Part shown: positions 11,278-19,961 of the stretch, in pieces
Numbering within the stretch: position 1 is the stretch's first letter
Layout: each line of letters starts with the position of its first letter
Assembly: GCF_946478785.1 (NCBI RefSeq)
Contig: NZ_CAMLDD010000003.1
Coordinates: 62,001-126,000 of the forward strand
DNA from: an uncultured Flavobacterium sp.
GTDB lineage: Bacteria > Bacteroidota > Bacteroidia > Flavobacteriales > Flavobacteriaceae
Direction of reading: 5' to 3'
DNA length: 64,000 bases
Program-made: the position numbers and the translations under genes
The notes under the pieces: model-generated
Seen by the model: only the letters and a program-made list of their open reading frames with translations
What the model was told of the DNA's origin: nothing
Databases searched by the model: none

Positions 11278-13995
11278 TTATTCCAAAACCAAACCAATCT
11301 GTCCATCATCGTCTAATTCCGTTTCAACAGAATCATCATCTGATAATTCCGGTTTTTCAGGAATTTCTTCAACAGGTTCTTCGTATGGCAATGGATCCAG
11401 TAAATTTACTTGTTTTAATTTTTCAGTTGTTAATTGATTTCCAATAGCTTTAAAACCTTTTACAGCAATAAAATCTTCAACATCAATATGTAAATCCTCT
11501 TTTTGAACACCTTTTACTTTTGCAAAAACTAATTGTGCCACCGGACGATAATCTGTCGATACAATTTCCAATTGTGAATTTGGATGATCGGTAATAAAAC
11601 TTTCTTCCTTGTTTTCATTTTCAACAAGGAAACGTTTTAAGAAATAACGTTCCTTTTCTCCATCATAATAAATAGCAGAAATTGGTTTTTTAGGTTTCCA
11701 TTTTTCTAAAACAATCATATCTTCATCAAAATGAGTTGATAATTCGGGAATAATAACCTTCAATTTACCAGATTGAGTGATGATTAGAATTTTATCACTT
11801 GGCTTAAATTCGCCCAGCAATTCACCTCGGGCATCAACATTCAAACGTTTTACCGTATCGTCAAACCAAACTTTTCGAGGTAATAAGGTTGAAATTCCTT
11901 TTTCTTTCAATTCAATTTTCTTGATAGGATATTTCGTTACCAGATTTCCTTTTGACGCACGTCCTTTTATCGCTAAATTGGCAAAATCAATATCAAATTT
12001 CAGTTTTTTGATCGTTCCAACCTGACGTAATAAAATGGTAATAACTTCAGCTTCACCATTTGGATTATGCGAAAAATAAACCACCTGAGAACCTGCTTTT
12101 TCATTAGTCAGATCATAAGGTTTATCACGGGTTACTCCTGAAACATTAAAACGCTTAATATATGATGGACCCGATTTACCGTCACGGTAAATCATGTTGT
12201 AAATCGTACGTTTATCGCTTTTGTCAAAAATAGCAACGTGAATAATGTCCTTACCCACAAAGGTCTTGGCATCTACTTTTGTTACCAGCATTTTTCCGTC
12301 ACGCAAGAACACGATTACATCATCAATATCAGAGCAGTCTGTAACATATTCGTCTTTTTTCAAGCTGGTTCCTACGAAACCTTCTTCGCGATTTACGTAT
12401 AATTTTGTGTTTCTTAAAACTACTTTTGTAGCCTCAACATTATCAAAAACACGAAGTTCTGTCTGGCGTTCGCGGCCTTTTCCGTATTTCTCTTTTAATT
12501 TTGTAAAATAAGCAATTGCAAAATCAGTCAAATGTTCCAGATTATGCTCGACTTCCTTCATTTCATCTTCTAACTTCGCAATAAAATCATCAGCTTTATC
12601 AGAGTCAAAACGTGTAATACGAATCATCGGAATCTGAGTCAATCGCTGTAAATCATCGTCATTAATTTCTCTGACAAATGATTTTTTGAAAGGCTCAAAT
12701 CGGTCGTACAAATATTTATACAGCGATTCTCTATCAGAATACAATTTGAAATCAATATACATTTCTTCACGAATGAAGATTTTCTCTAAAGTCGAGAAAT
12801 GCCATTTGTTTTTTAATTCCTCTAATTGAATTTCCAGTTCCTGACGAAGTAAATCAACCGTTCTGTGCGTTGAAATTTTCAACATCTCAGATACTCCGAT
12901 AAATAACGGTTTATTATCTTCAATAACACACCCTAGAGGTGCTACAGAAGTTTCGCAAGCAGTAAAAGCAAATAGGGCATCAATTGTTTTGTCCGGAGAA
13001 ACTCCTGGAAACAGGTGAATTAAAATCTCAACATCAGCCGCTGTATTGTCTTCAATTTTTTTGATTTTGATTTTGCCTTTATCATTGGCTTTCAAAATGC
13101 TGTCAATCAAAGTTGTTGTATTGGTTGAAAACGGAATTTGCGTAATCACCAAAGTGTTTTTGTCTAATTGCGCAATCTTCGCACGAACACGAACACGTCC
13201 GCCACGTAAACCGTCATTATAGTTAGACACATCGGCAATACCCTGCGTCATGAAATCCGGGTAAAGTGTAAATGGCTTTCCCTTTAAAATTTTAATAGAA
13301 GCGTCAATTAATTCATTGAAATTATGAGGCAAAACTTTAGTCGAAAGACCAACAGCAATACCTTCAGCCCCCTGTGCCAAAAGCAACGGAAATTTTACCG
13401 GAAGATTGTTAGGTTCAGCACGACGACCATCGTACGAAACGCCCCAATCGGTAATTTTTGGAGAGTACAAAACTTCCAAAGCAAATTTAGATAAACGCGC
13501 CTCAATGTAACGGGAAGCCGCAGCTCCATCACCCGTTAAGATATTTCCCCAGTTCCCCTGACAGTCAATCAATAAATCTTTCTGGCCAATTTGTACCATC
13601 GCATCACCAATACTCGCATCTCCGTGAGGGTGATATTGCATGGTGTGTCCTACAACATTGGCAACTTTATTATAACGACCATCATCCAATTCTTTCAGAG
13701 AGTGCATAATACGACGCTGAACGGGCTTAAAGCCATCTTCAATCGCCGGAACTGCACGTTCCAGAATTACATACGAAGCATAATCCAGAAACCAGTCTTT
13801 GTACATTCCGGTTACTTTTGTAATTACATCTTCGCCCTCTTCTTCCTGATTTTCGTAAAAATGCTGTCCTTCAAAATGTTTGGCATCTACATCAATAATT
13901 TCATCGTCTCTTTCCTGATTTTCCTCAAGTTGGTTTTCGTCTGAATTATTCTCGTCGTCGTTTGGAATTATGTTGTCGTCTTCTTCGTCTTTCAT
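11278..13995 (-). CDS. parC: DNA topoisomerase IV subunit A
   Basis: A 905-residue type IIA topoisomerase subunit that cuts and religates duplex DNA to decatenate chromosomes. An acidic N-terminal extension (1-55) precedes the winged-helix breakage domain (PVQRRIMHSL), with Arg162 and the catalytic Tyr163 in AASRYIEARL. The quinolone-region motif reads YHPHGDASIGDAMV, with Ala at the place of E. coli GyrA Ser83. A beta-propeller-like C-terminal domain and an acidic tail follow. The partner parE lies about 4 kb upstream on the same strand; the two are normally adjacent in this group (from general knowledge) but here are split by three foreign-looking genes. Only 27 bp separates its start from the last cassette gene. 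Confidence 0.93.
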   Translation of the reverse strand: MKDEEDDNIIPNDDENNSDENQLEENQERDDEIIDVDAKHFEGQHFYENQEEEGEDVITKVTGMYKDWFLDYASYVILERAVPAIEDGFKPVQRRIMHSLKELDDGRYNKVANVVGHTMQYHPHGDASIGDAMVQIGQKDLLIDCQGNWGNILTGDGAAASRYIEARLSKFALEVLYSPKITDWGVSYDGRRAEPNNLPVKFPLLLAQGAEGIAVGLSTKVLPHNFNELIDASIKILKGKPFTLYPDFMTQGIADVSNYNDGLRGGRVRVRAKIAQLDKNTLVITQIPFSTNTTTLIDSILKANDKGKIKIKKIEDNTAADVEILIHLFPGVSPDKTIDALFAFTACETSVAPLGCVIEDNKPLFIGVSEMLKISTHRTVDLLRQELEIQLEELKNKWHFSTLEKIFIREEMYIDFKLYSDRESLYKYLYDRFEPFKKSFVREINDDDLQRLTQIPMIRITRFDSDKADDFIAKLEDEMKEVEHNLEHLTDFAIAYFTKLKEKYGKGRERQTELRVFDNVEATKVVLRNTKLYVNREEGFVGTSLKKDEYVTDCSDIDDVIVFLRDGKMLVTKVDAKTFVGKDIIHVAIFDKSDKRTIYNMIYRDGKSGPSYIKRFNVSGVTRDKPYDLTNEKAGSQVVYFSHNPNGEAEVITILLRQVGTIKKLKFDIDFANLAIKGRASKGNLVTKYPIKKIELKEKGISTLLPRKVWFDDTVKRLNVDARGELLGEFKPSDKILIITQSGKLKVIIPELSTHFDEDMIVLEKWKPKKPISAIYYDGEKERYFLKRFLVENENKEESFITDHPNSQLEIVSTDYRPVAQLVFAKVKGVQKEDLHIDVEDFIAVKGFKAIGNQLTTEKLKQVNLLDPLPYEEPVEEIPEKPELSDDDSVETELDDDGQIGLVLE

Positions 13996-14022
13996 TTATC
14001 TTGAAATCAATTTTTTTCTAGT

Positions 14023-15726
14023 TTATTCGTAATATTCAATCTCTAGTTCATTAACAAATATTTTTTCAGATTTTAGAATAAGAGATTTTCGTAATTCTAA
14101 GATTTTATCCACTGAATTTTTATCTTTAGAATATATTTCTTTCATATCTTCAGAAACAAAATACAACAAATTATCTTCTGTATTTTCGCTTTCTAAAATT
14201 CTTCTAACATCAATATATTTATGTCCAATAACCTTAAAAAAAGCTTTATTATCTTGTCTTTTTATTTTTATTTTATTATTAAAAGCCTGTTTATCTATAA
14301 ACAATGGAAAATAGTTCTCTGATAAATTATCTAAACTATTTATTTTAAAAAGTACAGACTCAGAAAAAATTACACCTTCATTATCATTATTTTTTAATTT
14401 TAAATAATTTTTACTTGTAATACCTTTAAAATGATTTACAATAAACAAAGCATATGCTTTTGATCTCACACTGCCCTTATTTATTTTTAAAGGAAATTTT
14501 TCAGTTCTAAATCCATTAATAGAATCATCGTAAAAAATTGGGTCTAAATCTTCATTTTTTATAAATTCTTGAAATTGATTATATGCTAATCTTTGTTTAC
14601 TTAAGTTGTAAATTGTAAAATAATTGGAATATGAAGTAATCCAAAACCATTTTTTTAAAGATTCTAATTGTTTTAAACTTGGATTTTCAATTTTGTTAAA
14701 AAAATCAGTAATAAAAATTAATTGACTATTATAAGGAAGTAAATTACTATTATAAACATAAAGCTCATTATAAAGAAATTGCACAGCTTTTAAAATGGCG
14801 TCTAAAGATTTTCTAGAAATTTCAACAAAATTTTCATCTTTAGCTAATCTTTCAATTTTTCTATTATCTTCCTGACTAGATTTATCAAAATAAACAATTC
14901 CAAAAGAATTAGTTATACATTGAAAAATAAGCTTTCTGGAAATTTTGTGAAAATTATAAATTTTTAAATCATTTATTAAATTGTCAATTTCTGTTCCTAA
15001 CCTAAAATTTTTAAACTTATTAAAAGACAAAGCTGACACTTTCCAATCAGATGTTATTTTTGCTCCTTCCGAATTAAGCCTCGTAAAAATATCAACTGCT
15101 TCTTCTGTTGATCCGCCAATCATATCAATTGATGGTATGTCATAGCTGGAAAGTTTTAACGAAAAATCTTTATATCTTTCCAAATAAATATCTACAGTTC
15201 TTTCATCTAAGTTTAATTTAAATAATTCCGTTTGAAAATTGTAGAATTCAATACCATCTACAAATTTATACAATTCTACTTCATGTACTTCCTTGTTTTT
15301 CTTAGTCGATAATCCTATTTTATCTGTTTCTAAATTAAATACTAAATCAAATTCGATCCTCCATTCGATATTATCTCTTTTTAAATTTGTTTTGTTTGGA
15401 TTTACTAAACATCCAAACAATGTTGATAAACGCTGATATCCATCAAGAATATAGAAGTAATCAATAGATCTTTCTTTTAAATAATAAGAACCTATTTTTT
15501 CAGATTCAAAATTTCTAAAATCATCTAGGTTTGAAAAATCAGGTCTCCAAAATAAAATTGAACCGATAGGATATCCATTTTTTATACTATCAAACAATTT
15601 TACTTTTTTATCTAATTTCCATTCAAAATCTCTTTGAAAAGCAGGGATTCTGATAATACCTCTTTCAAAATCTTCAAGATAATGAAACAATCTTCTTACC
15701 CTAGTATTAATTTGTAAATTACTCAT
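14023..15726 (-). CDS. DUF262 (GmrS/ParB-like) domain protein of a putative defence cassette
   Basis: A 567-residue protein. The N-terminal DUF262 domain has the three family motifs: IPAFQRDFEW (27-36), GSILFW (55-60) and ILDGYQRLSTLFG (93-105). A fourth conserved stretch, EEAVDIFTRLNSEGAK, is at 209-224. DUF262 is the ParB/sulfiredoxin-like fold of GmrSD and many defence proteins, thought to bind or hydrolyse nucleotides. The usual DGQQR is DGYQR here. The C-terminal half is unassigned; the HNH (DUF1524) motif of GmrD-type proteins is not visible. Its start overlaps the preceding gene's stop by 4 bp, so the two are translationally coupled. Base composition is much lower in G+C than parC. Role in defence is inferred from family and context. 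Confidence 0.8.
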   Translation of the reverse strand: MSNLQINTRVRRLFHYLEDFERGIIRIPAFQRDFEWKLDKKVKLFDSIKNGYPIGSILFWRPDFSNLDDFRNFESEKIGSYYLKERSIDYFYILDGYQRLSTLFGCLVNPNKTNLKRDNIEWRIEFDLVFNLETDKIGLSTKKNKEVHEVELYKFVDGIEFYNFQTELFKLNLDERTVDIYLERYKDFSLKLSSYDIPSIDMIGGSTEEAVDIFTRLNSEGAKITSDWKVSALSFNKFKNFRLGTEIDNLINDLKIYNFHKISRKLIFQCITNSFGIVYFDKSSQEDNRKIERLAKDENFVEISRKSLDAILKAVQFLYNELYVYNSNLLPYNSQLIFITDFFNKIENPSLKQLESLKKWFWITSYSNYFTIYNLSKQRLAYNQFQEFIKNEDLDPIFYDDSINGFRTEKFPLKINKGSVRSKAYALFIVNHFKGITSKNYLKLKNNDNEGVIFSESVLFKINSLDNLSENYFPLFIDKQAFNNKIKIKRQDNKAFFKVIGHKYIDVRRILESENTEDNLLYFVSEDMKEIYSKDKNSVDKILELRKSLILKSEKIFVNELEIEYYE

Positions 15727-16784
15727 AATAATCTTTTTATTTCATTTACAATGTGGTCGAACTCATTTCTTTCAATATCATCAATTTCCGATCTAATTTT
15801 TGGCTGATGTTTAATTCTTTGATACATATCTTCTTTTGACATTACATCAAACTTCTTAGAAAAATTAGATTTAAAGCCAGGGAAACTTACTGAAAATCCA
15901 ATACCAACATTCAAATAATCACTATTTGAAATATTATCAAACAATTTTAAAACTTCTTCTTCTAAAGTTTCTTTTTCTTTTACCTTCCTAACACTATTAA
16001 CACTATTAAAATAGGAAAAACCTTTTTCTATATCTAAAAAATCTTTTTGGTCATTATTTAATCTTAAAAAAGAGTTTGCATAATTTTTTTTAACATGGTC
16101 ATAAATAAAAGATTCATAAATATTATTTGATATATAATTCTCTTTTTCTCTTTTATATAATATATGTTTATCTATTCCATAATCGTCGAGAAATTTAGAC
16201 TTTGAAATGGGAAGAACTTCTTCCTTGTATTTTTTGTCACTGTCCTTTATAACAAAATACCTTAAATATTTCTCCTTTGACTTAGTAAATACTATATTAT
16301 TAAAAGAATTTTGCATTTCGCCCCTTAAAACACCTTCGATAGATGAACCACCACCATTAGAGAATTTCAACCATAATTCATCTTTGGCATATTTAATTTC
16401 CCCACTATAATCAAAATTTCTTATAATAGCATTAATAAAAGGCGGCTCATACTCGCTATTTTCAACTAAAATATTTAATGGTTGATTTAGATATAAATAA
16501 GCCTCTTTAGTACCAAAATAATCAGGATTATTTCCGTCGTTTGATACAATTATTTTCAATTTATTTTTGACTTTTCGAGAACTTCTAACAATTGACTCTT
16601 TAACAATTTTAATATCTCTTTTACTTAAACCACTATACCAAGTAGAAGAAATACATGTTTCAATTTGCTCGCTATCATCGATTACAAAAAAATGTCTATC
16701 TTCTTTAAATAAACTTAATAAATTATCTAAATGAGAATGCTCATAGTTATCATTAAATATATCTTTAAAGATTTCAACTTGCAT
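15723..16784 (-). CDS. putative TOPRIM-like (DUF4435/OLD-type) protein of the cassette
   Basis: A 353-residue protein without an obvious named family. I see a TOPRIM-like order of motifs: an acidic strand end LNILVEN (Glu108), a Gly-rich turn GGGSS (144-148), a hydrophobic strand running into DSD (YFVIKDSDKK, Asp181/Asp183), then HILYKREKENYI (207-218), which resembles the K/R-R-E-x-E-N-Y motif that follows TOPRIM cores in DUF4435 and OLD-type nucleases. The C-terminal 100 residues are unassigned. It overlaps the ATPase gene by 11 bp and the DUF262 gene by 4 bp. Because the ATPase lacks a TOPRIM domain, this protein may be its effector nuclease in trans, as AriB is for AriA in PARIS. That assignment is inference. 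Confidence 0.6.
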   Translation of the reverse strand: MQVEIFKDIFNDNYEHSHLDNLLSLFKEDRHFFVIDDSEQIETCISSTWYSGLSKRDIKIVKESIVRSSRKVKNKLKIIVSNDGNNPDYFGTKEAYLYLNQPLNILVENSEYEPPFINAIIRNFDYSGEIKYAKDELWLKFSNGGGSSIEGVLRGEMQNSFNNIVFTKSKEKYLRYFVIKDSDKKYKEEVLPISKSKFLDDYGIDKHILYKREKENYISNNIYESFIYDHVKKNYANSFLRLNNDQKDFLDIEKGFSYFNSVNSVRKVKEKETLEEEVLKLFDNISNSDYLNVGIGFSVSFPGFKSNFSKKFDVMSKEDMYQRIKHQPKIRSEIDDIERNEFDHIVNEIKRLL

Positions 16785-17895
16785 TTTCTCTATTTTTTTG
16801 AGCTTTTCTTAATTTAATCACTTCATCATAACTTTCATTAAAAACATTATCTGGCCAATCTTCTATTTCCCCATCATCTTCAATTAATATTTCTTTTAAA
16901 TTACTACAATATTCATTTTCATCATAATCTACATAATATATTTTAACTTCATTTTTATTCAATGTTTTATCAGCAATCAATCGTTGAATTCTTAAAATGA
17001 AATTTTCAGAATGCGTTTCAATTAAATATTTCCTTTTGTCATTTTCTCTATAAGAATTAACAAATCTCTCCGCCAAATTTCCATGAGCGGAAGGATGCAA
17101 ATGAGTTTCTGGTTCTTCGATTATTATTAAAGTCTCTTCTTCTACAGGCATATACGATCTGACAATTAATGGTAAAGATTGTTTTATTCCCGATCCTGTA
17201 TTAAAAATATTGATTGGCGCTATTTTTTGGTTAGACAAAACAATTTCATAGGAAACTATTGAACCTGAAATATCTTTTACATTTATTTCCCATCCTTCAA
17301 AATTTTCTTTAAACCATTTTTTTATATCTTGAAGAACACTTACATTATTTTTATGATATTGTGCCATCAATTTGAATGCATTCTCTCCAGAAAGTCCAAT
17401 CTTATTATACTCACTAAAAACATCACTAAATTGTGGAGACGGAAATTTTCTAAAAGAATCTATGTAATCAAAATTTAAAGTCAAAGAATTAACTTTAATT
17501 TCATCTGAAAGCAAACCACTAAACTTACCTTTTATATCAATTTCCTTTTCATTATAAATGTATTTTGAAATATTTATATTATAGCTTCTATTACCTGAAA
17601 TTGAAAAGTCTAACTTTTCAGTTTCACTTTCTATTAAAAATTCTAATGGAGAAGTAGTTATTTCTCTATTATAAAATAAATCTTCATACGAAAGACCAAT
17701 AACAACATCATCATTTTTCAATTCGAGTGGTGCTGAGAAATCTCCTCTCAAGCTACCTGAAATCATAGTTGGTAATTTTAAAACAGCACTTTTCCCACTA
17801 TTATTTTTCCCAATTAAAATAGTAATTGGTTTTAATTCTAATGTCTGTAGATCTTTAAAAAGCTTATAATTTTTAAACGATATTTTATTTATCAT
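16774..17895 (-). CDS. AAA ATPase with DUF3696-like C-terminus (SMC/OLD-like)
   Basis: A 373-residue ABC/SMC-type ATPase of the AAA_15/AAA_21 group found in bacterial defence. It opens with the standard ISFKNYKLFKD strand, Walker A GKNNSGKS (29-36), a signature-like TGSGIKQSLPL (233-243), Walker B LIIIEEPETHLHP (256-268) and a THSE sensor (294-297). The C-terminus (EDDGEIEDWPDNVF, then a short helix) matches DUF3696. No coiled-coil insertion and no TOPRIM domain are visible. It is the first gene of the three-gene cassette. Upstream lie a 37-bp perfect palindrome and the parE terminator, so the cassette probably has its own promoter. Family call is strong; partner and trigger are unknown. Confidence 0.87.
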   Translation of the reverse strand: MINKISFKNYKLFKDLQTLELKPITILIGKNNSGKSAVLKLPTMISGSLRGDFSAPLELKNDDVVIGLSYEDLFYNREITTSPLEFLIESETEKLDFSISGNRSYNINISKYIYNEKEIDIKGKFSGLLSDEIKVNSLTLNFDYIDSFRKFPSPQFSDVFSEYNKIGLSGENAFKLMAQYHKNNVSVLQDIKKWFKENFEGWEINVKDISGSIVSYEIVLSNQKIAPINIFNTGSGIKQSLPLIVRSYMPVEEETLIIIEEPETHLHPSAHGNLAERFVNSYRENDKRKYLIETHSENFILRIQRLIADKTLNKNEVKIYYVDYDENEYCSNLKEILIEDDGEIEDWPDNVFNESYDEVIKLRKAQKNRENAS

Positions 17896-17968
17896 TTTTT
17901 TTATTTTTATGATTATAAATTTAAATAGATTATCTCATAATATTTTTGAAGAAATCTATTAAATTAAC

Positions 17969-18005
17969 TTTTGAATTTCGTCAACAGTGTTGACGAAATT
18001 CAAAA
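17969..18005. promoter_or_regulatory. 37-bp near-perfect palindrome upstream of the cassette
   Basis: An 18-base arm (17969-17986) and its exact reverse complement (17988-18005) flank one central base. The core reads GTCAACAGTGTTGAC. It lies 73 bp upstream of the ATPase start and has no T-tract on either side, so it looks more like an operator or recognition site than a terminator. The 9-mer CAACACTGT from its minus-strand centre recurs on the plus strand at 18018-18026. Confidence 0.5.
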
Positions 18006-18012
18006 CTCCAAA

Positions 18013-18037
18013 ATCCGCAACACTGTCGCGGGTTTTT
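18013..18037 (+). other. short hairpin with T-run between cassette and parE
   Basis: ATCCGC (18013-18018) pairs with GCGGGT (18028-18033), one T-G pair included, around a loop containing AACACTGT, and TTTT follows on the plus strand. It resembles a weak plus-strand terminator but no plus-strand gene precedes it. It may be a remnant of the cassette's insertion. Confidence 0.3.
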
Positions 18038-18045
18038 ATATTTCA

Positions 18046-18072
18046 AAAACCGCAGGAACTAACTGCGGTTTT
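18046..18072 (-). terminator. parE terminator
   Basis: AAAACCGCAG (18046-18055) and CTGCGGTTTT (18063-18072) form a perfect 10-bp stem with loop GAACTAA. On the minus strand it is followed by TTTTTG. It lies 15 bp past the parE stop and should block read-through into the cassette. Confidence 0.75.
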
Positions 18073-18086
18073 CATAATTTTATTTT

Positions 18087-19961
18087 TTAAATAGCAACAT
18101 CTTCAATCGTATCCAATTCAACCTTCAAATTCTTGATAATAAACTCTTGTCTGTCCGGAGTATTTTTTCCCATATAAAAAGACAATAATTGCTCAATCGA
18201 AGTGTTTTTATCCATCATAATTGGGTCAAGACGTATAGTTTCTCCAATGAAATTCTTAAACTCATCCGGTGAAATCTCTCCCAAACCTTTAAATCGGGTA
18301 ATTTCCGGTTTTGGTTTTAATTTTTCGATGGCATCTCTTCTTTCTTCTTCAGAATAACAATAAATGGTTTCTTTTTTATTTCGAACCCTGAAAAGCGGTG
18401 TTTGTAAAATATACAAATGTCCTTCTTTGATTAATTCAGGGAAAAATTGCAAAAAGAACGTAATCAATAACAAACGAATGTGCATTCCGTCGACATCGGC
18501 ATCGGTTGCGATTACGATGTTGTTGTAACGCAATTTTTCGAGTCCATCTTCGATATCCAAAGCGGCTTGGAGTAAATTGAATTCTTCATTTTCATAAACG
18601 ATTTTCTTTGTCATTCCATACGAATTCAAAGGCTTTCCACGTAAACTGAAAACAGCTTGCGTATTCACATCACGTGATTTGGTAATCGATCCGGAAGCCG
18701 AATCTCCCTCGGTAATAAAAAGCGTGCTTTCTAAATTTCGAGGATTTTTAGTATCGGGAAGATGCGCACGGCAATCTCTTAATTTTTTATTATGAAGATT
18801 GGCCTTTTTAGCGCGATCTGTTGCCAGTTTTCTAATTCCTGATAATTCTTTACGCTCACGTTCTGCCTGCAAAATTTTACGCAATAATGCTTCTGCCGTT
18901 GGAGGATTTTTATGTAAATAATTGTCAAGTTTGTTCTTAACAAAATCATTTACAAAAGTACGAACAGAAACTGCAGGAGTTCCATCATCAGAACCCATAT
19001 CGGTAGAACCTAATTTGGTTTTGGTCTGAGATTCAAAAACGGGTTCCATTACCTTGATACTAATCGCACTCACAATCGATTTGCGAACATCTGACGCTTC
19101 GAAATTTTTGTTGTAAAACTCTCGGATGGTTTTTACAATCGCTTCTCGATAAGCAGCTAAGTGCGTTCCTCCCTGTGTGGTATTCTGACCATTTACGAAG
19201 GAGTGATATTCTTCGCTGTATTGTGTTTTACTGTGCGTTAAAGCGATTTCTATATCATGATCTTTCAAATGAATAATTGGATATTCTAAATCATCTTCGC
19301 TGATGGTTTCTTCTAATAAGTCACGAAGACCATTCTCAGAAATATATTTTTCTCCGTTGAAAATAATAGTCAGTCCATTGTTCAGGTAACAATAATTTTT
19401 GACCATTTTAATCACATATTCCATACGGAATTTGTAGTTTTTGAAGATCGTTTCATCTGGCGTAAAAGTTACTTTTGTTCCTTTACGTTTTGTGGTTTCG
19501 ATTACATCTTCTTCTAATACCAGATTTCCTCCTGAAAACTCTGCTGCTTTTTGCTTTTCATCACGAACAGATTCTACACGGAAATAATTTGATAAAGCAT
19601 TAACCGCTTTTGTTCCGACACCATTTAAACCAACTGATTTCTGGAAAGCTTTAGAATCGTACTTTCCACCAGTGTTCATTTTCGAAACTACATCGACCAC
19701 TTTTCCTAACGGAATTCCACGTCCGTAATCACGAACCGAAACCGTTTTGTCTTTGATAGTCACTTCAATAGTTTTTCCTGAGCCCATTACGAACTCATCG
19801 ATACAGTTGTCTAAAACCTCTTTTAAAAGAATATAAATACCGTCATCCGGCGAAGATCCGTCTCCCAATTTTCCGATATACATTCCGGGACGCATACGAA
19901 TATGCTCTTTCCAATCGAGTGATCTAATATTATCTTCGTTATATTGATTTTGCTCTAGCAT
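18087..19961 (-). CDS. parE: DNA topoisomerase IV subunit B
   Basis: A 624-residue ATPase subunit of topoisomerase IV. The GHKL ATP-binding fold shows the N-box LDNCIDEF, the G1 box DYGRGIPLG and [14 protein letters not shown]. The TOPRIM domain shows [12 protein letters not shown] and [10 protein letters not shown]. The C-terminal [14 protein letters not shown] motif is diagnostic of GyrB/ParE, and the short length without the extra GyrB insertion fits ParE. It pairs with ParC (11278-13995), from which it is separated by the three-gene cassette. The start [17 protein letters not shown] is a usual flavobacterial ParE N-terminus. Confidence 0.94.

Follow-up and report, generated by a model that had tools for sequence, protein, structure and literature searches.

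Among described anti-phage systems, Menshen and PARIS stand closest to the locus reported here, a cassette of three genes (A, B and C in order of transcription) which lies between the topoisomerase IV genes parE and parC of an uncultured Flavobacterium sp. (assembly GCF_946478785.1, contig NZ_CAMLDD010000003.1, positions 62,001 to 126,000; this whole stretch of 64,000 nucleotides is called the window below). Menshen is represented in PADLOC by three models: NsnA, which matches DUF262 proteins, NsnB, which matches ATPases, and NsnC (305 positions), which matches the third protein. The order is DUF262-ATPase-NsnC in the Menshen loci L068, L069, L070 and L071. The third protein of ptuXYZ has been described as a PIN-like domain without catalytic residues joined to a BECR RNase domain (PMC11980606). 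Based upon its operon composition ptuXYZ appears to be the same type of system as Menshen, a name which is absent from the text of that paper. One review credits a component of Menshen with a TOPRIM domain (PMC10952713); at odds with this, Pfam TOPRIM was matched by none of the NsnC (three) and NsnB (two) proteins which we scanned. In PARIS, AriB is a two-metal nuclease which cleaves tRNA-Lys (PMC12409363) and is activated by its ATPase, AriA (PMC12839542).

Identity and conservation of the cassette

Pfam, NCBIfam and PADLOC-DB models were run on the window proteins. Gene A matches PDC-M55A [1.2e-75], gene B PDC-M55B [3.6e-25] and gene C PDC-M55C [2.1e-73]; all three component models of PDC-M55 are thus matched, in A-B-C order, and no difference from that candidate was found. 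The three-part combination, to which the preliminary description of this DNA could not give a name, is by these profile matches already catalogued. PADLOC PDCs are putative and mostly unvalidated candidates which come from a guilt-by-embedding approach (PMC12988326). "PDC-M55" is not mentioned anywhere in the literature searched, nor was a validation of the candidate found there, and among the literature listings searched, with most full texts outside their scope, no title or abstract opening describes this three-gene set. The features of the locus are as follows.

Gene A, 16774–17895, minus strand: first in transcription order; 373 amino acids (aa); PDC-M55A; OLD-family ABC-type ATPase with a DUF3696 tail; NsnB homologue by sequence.
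Gene B, 15723–16784, minus strand: middle gene; 353 aa; PDC-M55B; predicted nuclease with a PIN-like domain (1–~100) and an OLD/AriB-type TOPRIM domain (~99–353).
Gene C, 14023–15726, minus strand: third gene; 567 aa; PDC-M55C; DUF262/GmrSD_N protein, BrxU-like, with a DGYQR nucleoside triphosphate (NTP) motif.
parE, 18087–19961, minus strand: upstream flank; Pfam DNA_gyraseB, Toprim and HATPase_c.
parC, 11278–13995, minus strand: downstream flank, 27 bp past gene C; Pfam DNA_topoisoIV.
AT-rich spacer between parE and gene A, 17896–18086, no strand: 191 bp, with two terminator-like inverted repeats (consensus scan only).

The open reading frames (ORFs) agree exactly with the preliminary description of three overlapping minus-strand genes between parC and parE (overlaps of 11 bp for A/B and 4 bp for B/C), as do its counts for the low interior G+C (14 of 60 at 14281–14340, 27 of 60 at 13381–13440). 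The gap between parE and parC measures 4091 bp (13996–18086). G+C is 0.245 over the three-gene stretch versus 0.364 in parC and 0.362 in parE, and at third codon positions (GC3) 0.14–0.17 in the cassette genes versus 0.29–0.31 in the par genes; when segments as long as the cassette were taken along the 64 kb in 50-bp steps, those touching the insert among them, 2 of 1203 had G+C as low. No tRNA was detected in the window by ARAGORN. The inverted repeats of the spacer lie at 18046–18072 and 17969–18005, the latter of 17 pairs, and two core words of this 17-pair repeat had no copy in loci L015–L054 or L086–L099 in a script check.

Gene B has 65 relatives at E ≤ 0.001, the window's own protein included, of which 59 were aligned (A1). 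A profile scan of genome contigs (genome_contigs) with this alignment yielded 14 loci from Bacteroidota, Vibrio and Colwellia types and one further bacterium, and all 14 carry relatives of A, B and C in the same order and on the same strand, with the 4-bp B-C overlap. This is the outcome of the neighbourhood check that the preliminary description had proposed for the three families. The order also holds in 12 of 12 Flavobacterium loci, the F. cupreum locus being common to both sets, and five B and four C proteins from the 14 loci match PDC-M55B and PDC-M55C. Gene A is truncated by the contig end in L011. In Cognaticolwellia (L010, 8789–9915) and Colwellia (L014, 8769–9917) the ATPase is split over two ORFs, with B and C open. 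The F. cupreum middle gene (L003, 9990–10280) may be damaged or misassembled, since no in-frame start codon is listed at its expected beginning. A possible two-gene form occurs in L072 (6720–9016), where M55-type A and B have no C within three ORFs.

Outside Flavobacterium the cassette is thinly distributed: of 295 Bacteroidia genomes just 4 gave a PDC-M55B match at 1e-5, including the centre genome, and two of these matches lie within frames of 621–634 aa of a different architecture. Two 621-aa ORFs (L066, 1351–3216; L067, 142–2007) match PDC-M55B positions 162–283; that of L067 also matches the window ATPase [2.9e-11] and that of L066 has by eye a P-loop-like start, such that both are possible ATPase-TOPRIM fusions. 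Gene C has at least 745 relatives at E ≤ 1e-10. The PDC-M55C model, tried as a marker for effector variants, was discarded as unspecific; at 1e-30 it matched 9 of 295 and 6 of 299 genomes in two genome sets, and none of the 12 loci examined had M55 partners within three ORFs.

The component proteins compared with Menshen, PARIS and OLD

Gene A matches the Pfam families AAA_15, AAA_21 and DUF3696, and gene C GmrSD_N (= DUF262), in agreement with the families proposed in the preliminary description. At least 90% of 15 aligned sequences preserve the gene A motif G29-K30-N31-x-x-G34-K35-S36, and the same is true of E260-x-P262-E263. The other PADLOC matches of this ATPase are to Menshen NsnB [8e-56, residues 1–362] and PARIS AriA [6e-20], and compared with four ATPases from NsnC-model loci it gave an hhalign probability of 99.9 over 339 columns. 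By sequence, then, its closest described relative is NsnB rather than AriA.

For gene B neither Pfam (E ≤ 1) nor NCBIfam (E ≤ 10) offered a family; searching solved structures with its sequence was of no use either, and PHROGs yielded unnamed families only. Its predicted structure (predicted local distance difference test, pLDDT, 94.7) has as best fold matches defence-type TOPRIM proteins (OLD, AriB-like), which supports the TOPRIM-like nature first suggested for it and not membership in an unrelated housekeeping family. The whole-protein model was searched; the VIA comparison bears on residues 43–353, the remainder being barely covered, and whatever Foldseek or VIA ranked beneath the TOPRIM and PIN matches was disregarded as noise. 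On this model gene B looks like a PIN-like domain of about 100 residues, which the preliminary description had apparently missed, followed by an OLD/AriB-type TOPRIM nuclease. In residues 1–98 the only conserved acids are D8 (D in 54 of 76 sequences, E in 10) and E94 (75 of 76), and no conserved PIN acidic active site is present among the 76 sequences.

The two-metal side chains reported for Bp OLD are E400, D455, D457, E404, T506, E508 and K562 (PMC6755086). Near-invariant gene B candidates exist for six of the seven (E108, D181, D183, E/D113, E215 and K305), while E213 (74 of 76) may stand for T506. The equivalence is one of motif order, not of superposed coordinates; read in this way, gene B has the glutamate, the DxD, the second-metal acids and the lysine of an OLD-type TOPRIM domain. 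Gabija GajA is of the same TOPRIM type. In the cassette, however, ATPase and TOPRIM are encoded by separate genes and there is no helicase partner (GajB), and on these two grounds membership in Gabija was rejected.

In gene C the DUF262 NTPase motif is present, D95-G96-x-Q98-R99 being invariant in 43 sequences. The ParB/sulfiredoxin-like N-domain with DGxQR is shared with BrxU/GmrSD, SspE and DndI, and the overall model is BrxU-like. By sequence profile the match to BrxU is confined to profile positions 17–273, Pfam DUF1524 was absent at E ≤ 1, and not one histidine reaches 90% conservation among the 43 sequences. Gene C thus differs from these proteins in having no conserved HNH histidine, and for this reason it probably has no nuclease activity of its own.

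In the two Menshen loci scanned with PADLOC, the DUF262 proteins are recognized by the NsnA model [L069, 6.2e-111; L068, 6.7e-140] and the L069 ATPase by NsnB [2.1e-104]. Gene C gave no NsnA match to E 10, and one of four M55 relatives scanned matches NsnA [1.5e-11]. Against the four Menshen DUF262 proteins gene C produced a profile match with a probability of 97.6 over 200 columns, and by this comparison it appears to be a remote homologue of NsnA. Gene B is unlike NsnC: neither the window protein nor five relatives matched the model to E 10, hhalign gave a probability of 0.3, and a profile comparison of the two N-domains showed nothing. NsnC was found in none of nine genomes with M55 loci; the control genomes in those scans were matchless too, although the model finds matches elsewhere, including, at 1e-5, 6 of the 369 genomes from the class to which the Vibrio locus belongs.

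Common to both systems are a homologous DUF3696 ATPase and a DUF262 protein that is apparently homologous too, and their nuclease components share a PIN-like N-domain, modelled in gene B and reported in print for ptuXYZ. M55 differs in having a TOPRIM domain instead of the BECR effector domain, in its permuted order (ATPase-TOPRIM-DUF262 versus NsnA-NsnB-NsnC), and in the longer DUF262 protein, 567 aa here versus 366 (L069), 369 (L070), 429 (L068) and 514 (L071). Since A is homologous to the Menshen ATPase and C, it appears, to the Menshen DUF262 protein, B is unlike NsnC and the third ptuXYZ protein is of PIN-like plus BECR composition, we describe the cassette as having the same chassis with a different warhead in a permuted order. 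That the chassis is Menshen-like we consider likely.

With PARIS the cassette has in common an ATPase and a TOPRIM nuclease of similar fold on separate genes. It differs from PARIS in lacking a DUF4435 match and in possessing the added PIN-like domain, the third, DUF262, gene and an ATPase closer to NsnB.

The parE–parC gap as a recurrent cargo site

In a genus sample of 121 Flavobacterium genomes parE and parC were each matched in 117, parE being 82–99% identical in the 117 matching at 1e-200. Pairs linked on one contig and strand numbered 113, from 112 genomes. Of these, 43 are separated by less than 100 bp, 19 by 100–300 bp, 11 by 300–700 bp, 27 by 700–1500 bp, 7 by 1500–2500 bp, one by 2500–3500 bp and 5 by 3500–5000 bp. 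Compared with the 43 closely spaced pairs, the 4091 bp of the window agree with the accessory insertion originally suspected. Nor are the three genes conserved core neighbours of parC and parE, which would have spoken against an insertion, as gene B was found at E ≤ 1e-8 in 12 of 398 Flavobacterium genomes.

The 40 gaps of at least 700 bp (L015–L054) were examined, contents being assigned by clusters and named from representatives. Eighteen carry a YhcG/DUF1016-type nuclease (split in L023 and L028), five a nucleotidyltransferase (NTase) and substrate-binding pair, four M55, two Fic (L021 by similarity to L026), one PARIS (L020) and one an SNF2 helicase (L017). In the remaining nine the genes are unassigned, of DUF3298 type or, judged by eye, lipoprotein-like. 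In all 40 every ORF of at least 120 aa is co-directional with parE (ORFs overlapping a longer one were dropped). The parE–parC gap of Flavobacterium is, then, a recurrent cargo site. Nine of the 12 Flavobacterium M55 loci lie in it, a tenth (L093) adjoins parC, parE being absent from its displayed neighbours, and the other two (L086, L092) are located elsewhere.

When its ends are compared by eye with ungapped relatives, the cargo stands where these have a short leader from the parE stop to the parC start, and no duplication of the target is obvious. In genome G101 parE is 99% identical to that of the window, and the M55 proteins are just 49, 29 and 49% identical. From these sequences we infer that cargo may be replaced through recombination in the conserved flanks. 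A DUF1016 N-terminal fragment lies between parE and M55 in L087 (10154–10810), as if one cargo had displaced another. In another Bacteroidia genome (L079, 2406–7327) a DUF262 gene standing alone, together with a gene for a HipA-like kinase, comes directly after a parE-like gene (by eye), which suggests that cargo is accepted downstream of parE beyond Flavobacterium too.

Neighbours were scanned in six of the 14 genome loci, chosen by eye (L002, L004, L007, L010, L013 and L014). They include HsdR and HsdS (L007), HsdM (L002), an Mrr-type gene (L004), a restriction-type helicase (L014) and Mokosh MkoC [L013, 2.5e-299]. An integrase-family gene is located downstream of gene C in Cognaticolwellia (L010, 12929–14170). 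Neither the 72,556 plasmid records searched at E ≤ 1e-5 nor the 50,697 phage records searched at E ≤ 1e-3 contained a match to gene B, and 26 pattern matches in viral contigs (viral_contigs) gave no confirmed relative; hence no mobile carrier was found.

Proposed function and alternative readings

The cassette is very probably a defence system, and with like confidence we would take the TOPRIM nuclease of gene B to be its effector. The fuller proposal, a PDC-M55-type three-gene anti-phage cassette built on an ATPase and DUF262 chassis as in Menshen, armed with a TOPRIM nuclease and working as outlined here, we regard as probable. In its favour are the matches of all three proteins to the models of a single PADLOC candidate, the constant gene order, the restriction-modification, Mrr and Mokosh genes near M55 loci among those scanned, and the presence of PARIS and YhcG nucleases as other cargo of the parE–parC gap. 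Gene C, with its ParB/sulfiredoxin fold, DGxQR pocket and no HNH active site, would bind NTP and sense infection, the cue being perhaps a modification of the phage DNA or a shift in nucleotide pools. Gene A, the OLD-type ATPase, would form an oligomeric scaffold which keeps the TOPRIM protein inactive and relays the signal, and the PIN-like domain of gene B, having no conserved active site, might serve as a docking module. Once released, gene B would dimerise and cut nucleic acid by two-metal catalysis. By analogy its closest mechanistic precedent is AriB, which is likewise released and then dimerises. Cleavage of RNA, tRNA first, would be somewhat likelier than cleavage of DNA, and the infected cell would stop growing. 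This slight preference for RNA is based upon analogy, the effector domain of the Menshen type being an RNase fold and AriB cutting tRNA; OLD and GajA cut DNA, which counts the other way.

PARIS was put forward at the outset as the closest described logic, and a PARIS variant would have an AriA-like ATPase restraining an AriB-like TOPRIM tRNA nuclease and responding to an anti-restriction protein of the phage, while the DUF262 gene would be a passenger. The resemblance in ATPase and TOPRIM nuclease holds. We nevertheless think such a variant unlikely: gene B matches neither DUF4435 nor AriB (Pfam to E 1, PADLOC to E 10), whereas the PARIS found at the same site in L020 does match [2e-42]; the ATPase is nearer NsnB than AriA and carries a DUF3696 not seen in the L020 AriA at E ≤ 0.01; and the supposed passenger stands behind the TOPRIM gene at every one of the 14 loci. 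An AriB-type DUF4435 TOPRIM protein and AriA as closest ATPase family, by which PARIS is recognized, are both wanting. The cassette might instead be Menshen itself with a divergent effector, already published as a domain variant. Such an effector swap may, to judge by the title, already be described in a 2025 paper on domain polymorphism in Menshen. Homology of the ATPase to NsnB, and apparently of the DUF262 protein to NsnA, is in keeping with this reading, as is the third ptuXYZ protein with its PIN-like domain lacking catalytic residues and its BECR RNase (PMC11980606). The order is ATPase-TOPRIM-DUF262 rather than DUF262-ATPase-NsnC, however, and the DUF262 and middle proteins of the window match neither the NsnA nor the NsnC model, such that we hold this reading to be improbable.

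Type IV restriction, in which gene C would cut modified phage DNA in the manner of BrxU/GmrSD with the other two genes helping, draws on the BrxU-like model of gene C. The match to the BrxU profile stops at position 273, though, the nuclease motif DHIYP given for BrxU (PMC8565348) has no counterpart among sequences devoid of a conserved histidine, and the conserved active site sits in the TOPRIM protein, which leaves it a poor candidate. A service to topoisomerase IV, such as a checkpoint for supercoiling or DNA damage with a functional link to parE and parC, might be suggested by the nine of 12 Flavobacterium loci between the two genes, by the tenth which adjoins parC, and by ParE too having a TOPRIM domain. 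We consider it very improbable, as the same gap is empty or holds unrelated cargo in most sampled relatives, at the 13 other genome loci the ORFs displayed, at most three to each side of B and counting A and C, include no relative of parE or parC, and the TOPRIM domain of gene B resembles those of OLD and AriB.

Returning to an M55 cassette on a Menshen-like chassis, we would tentatively go a step further. M55 and Menshen could be two arms of one modular immune chassis, in which a DUF262 sensor and an OLD-DUF3696 ATPase are combined with a nuclease linked through an adaptor, its C-terminal warhead, BECR RNase or TOPRIM, being interchangeable, and the parE–parC defences of Flavobacterium could be swapped by recombination in the flanks without a cassette recombinase.

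PDC-M55 gains from this analysis a concrete anatomy, with a predicted nuclease component, residues to mutate and a probable sensor, and is linked to Menshen through two components, the ATPase being homologous by sequence and the DUF262 protein apparently so. The locus also draws attention to a small co-directional cargo site between housekeeping genes; the parE–parC gaps of Flavobacterium could yield further defence genes.

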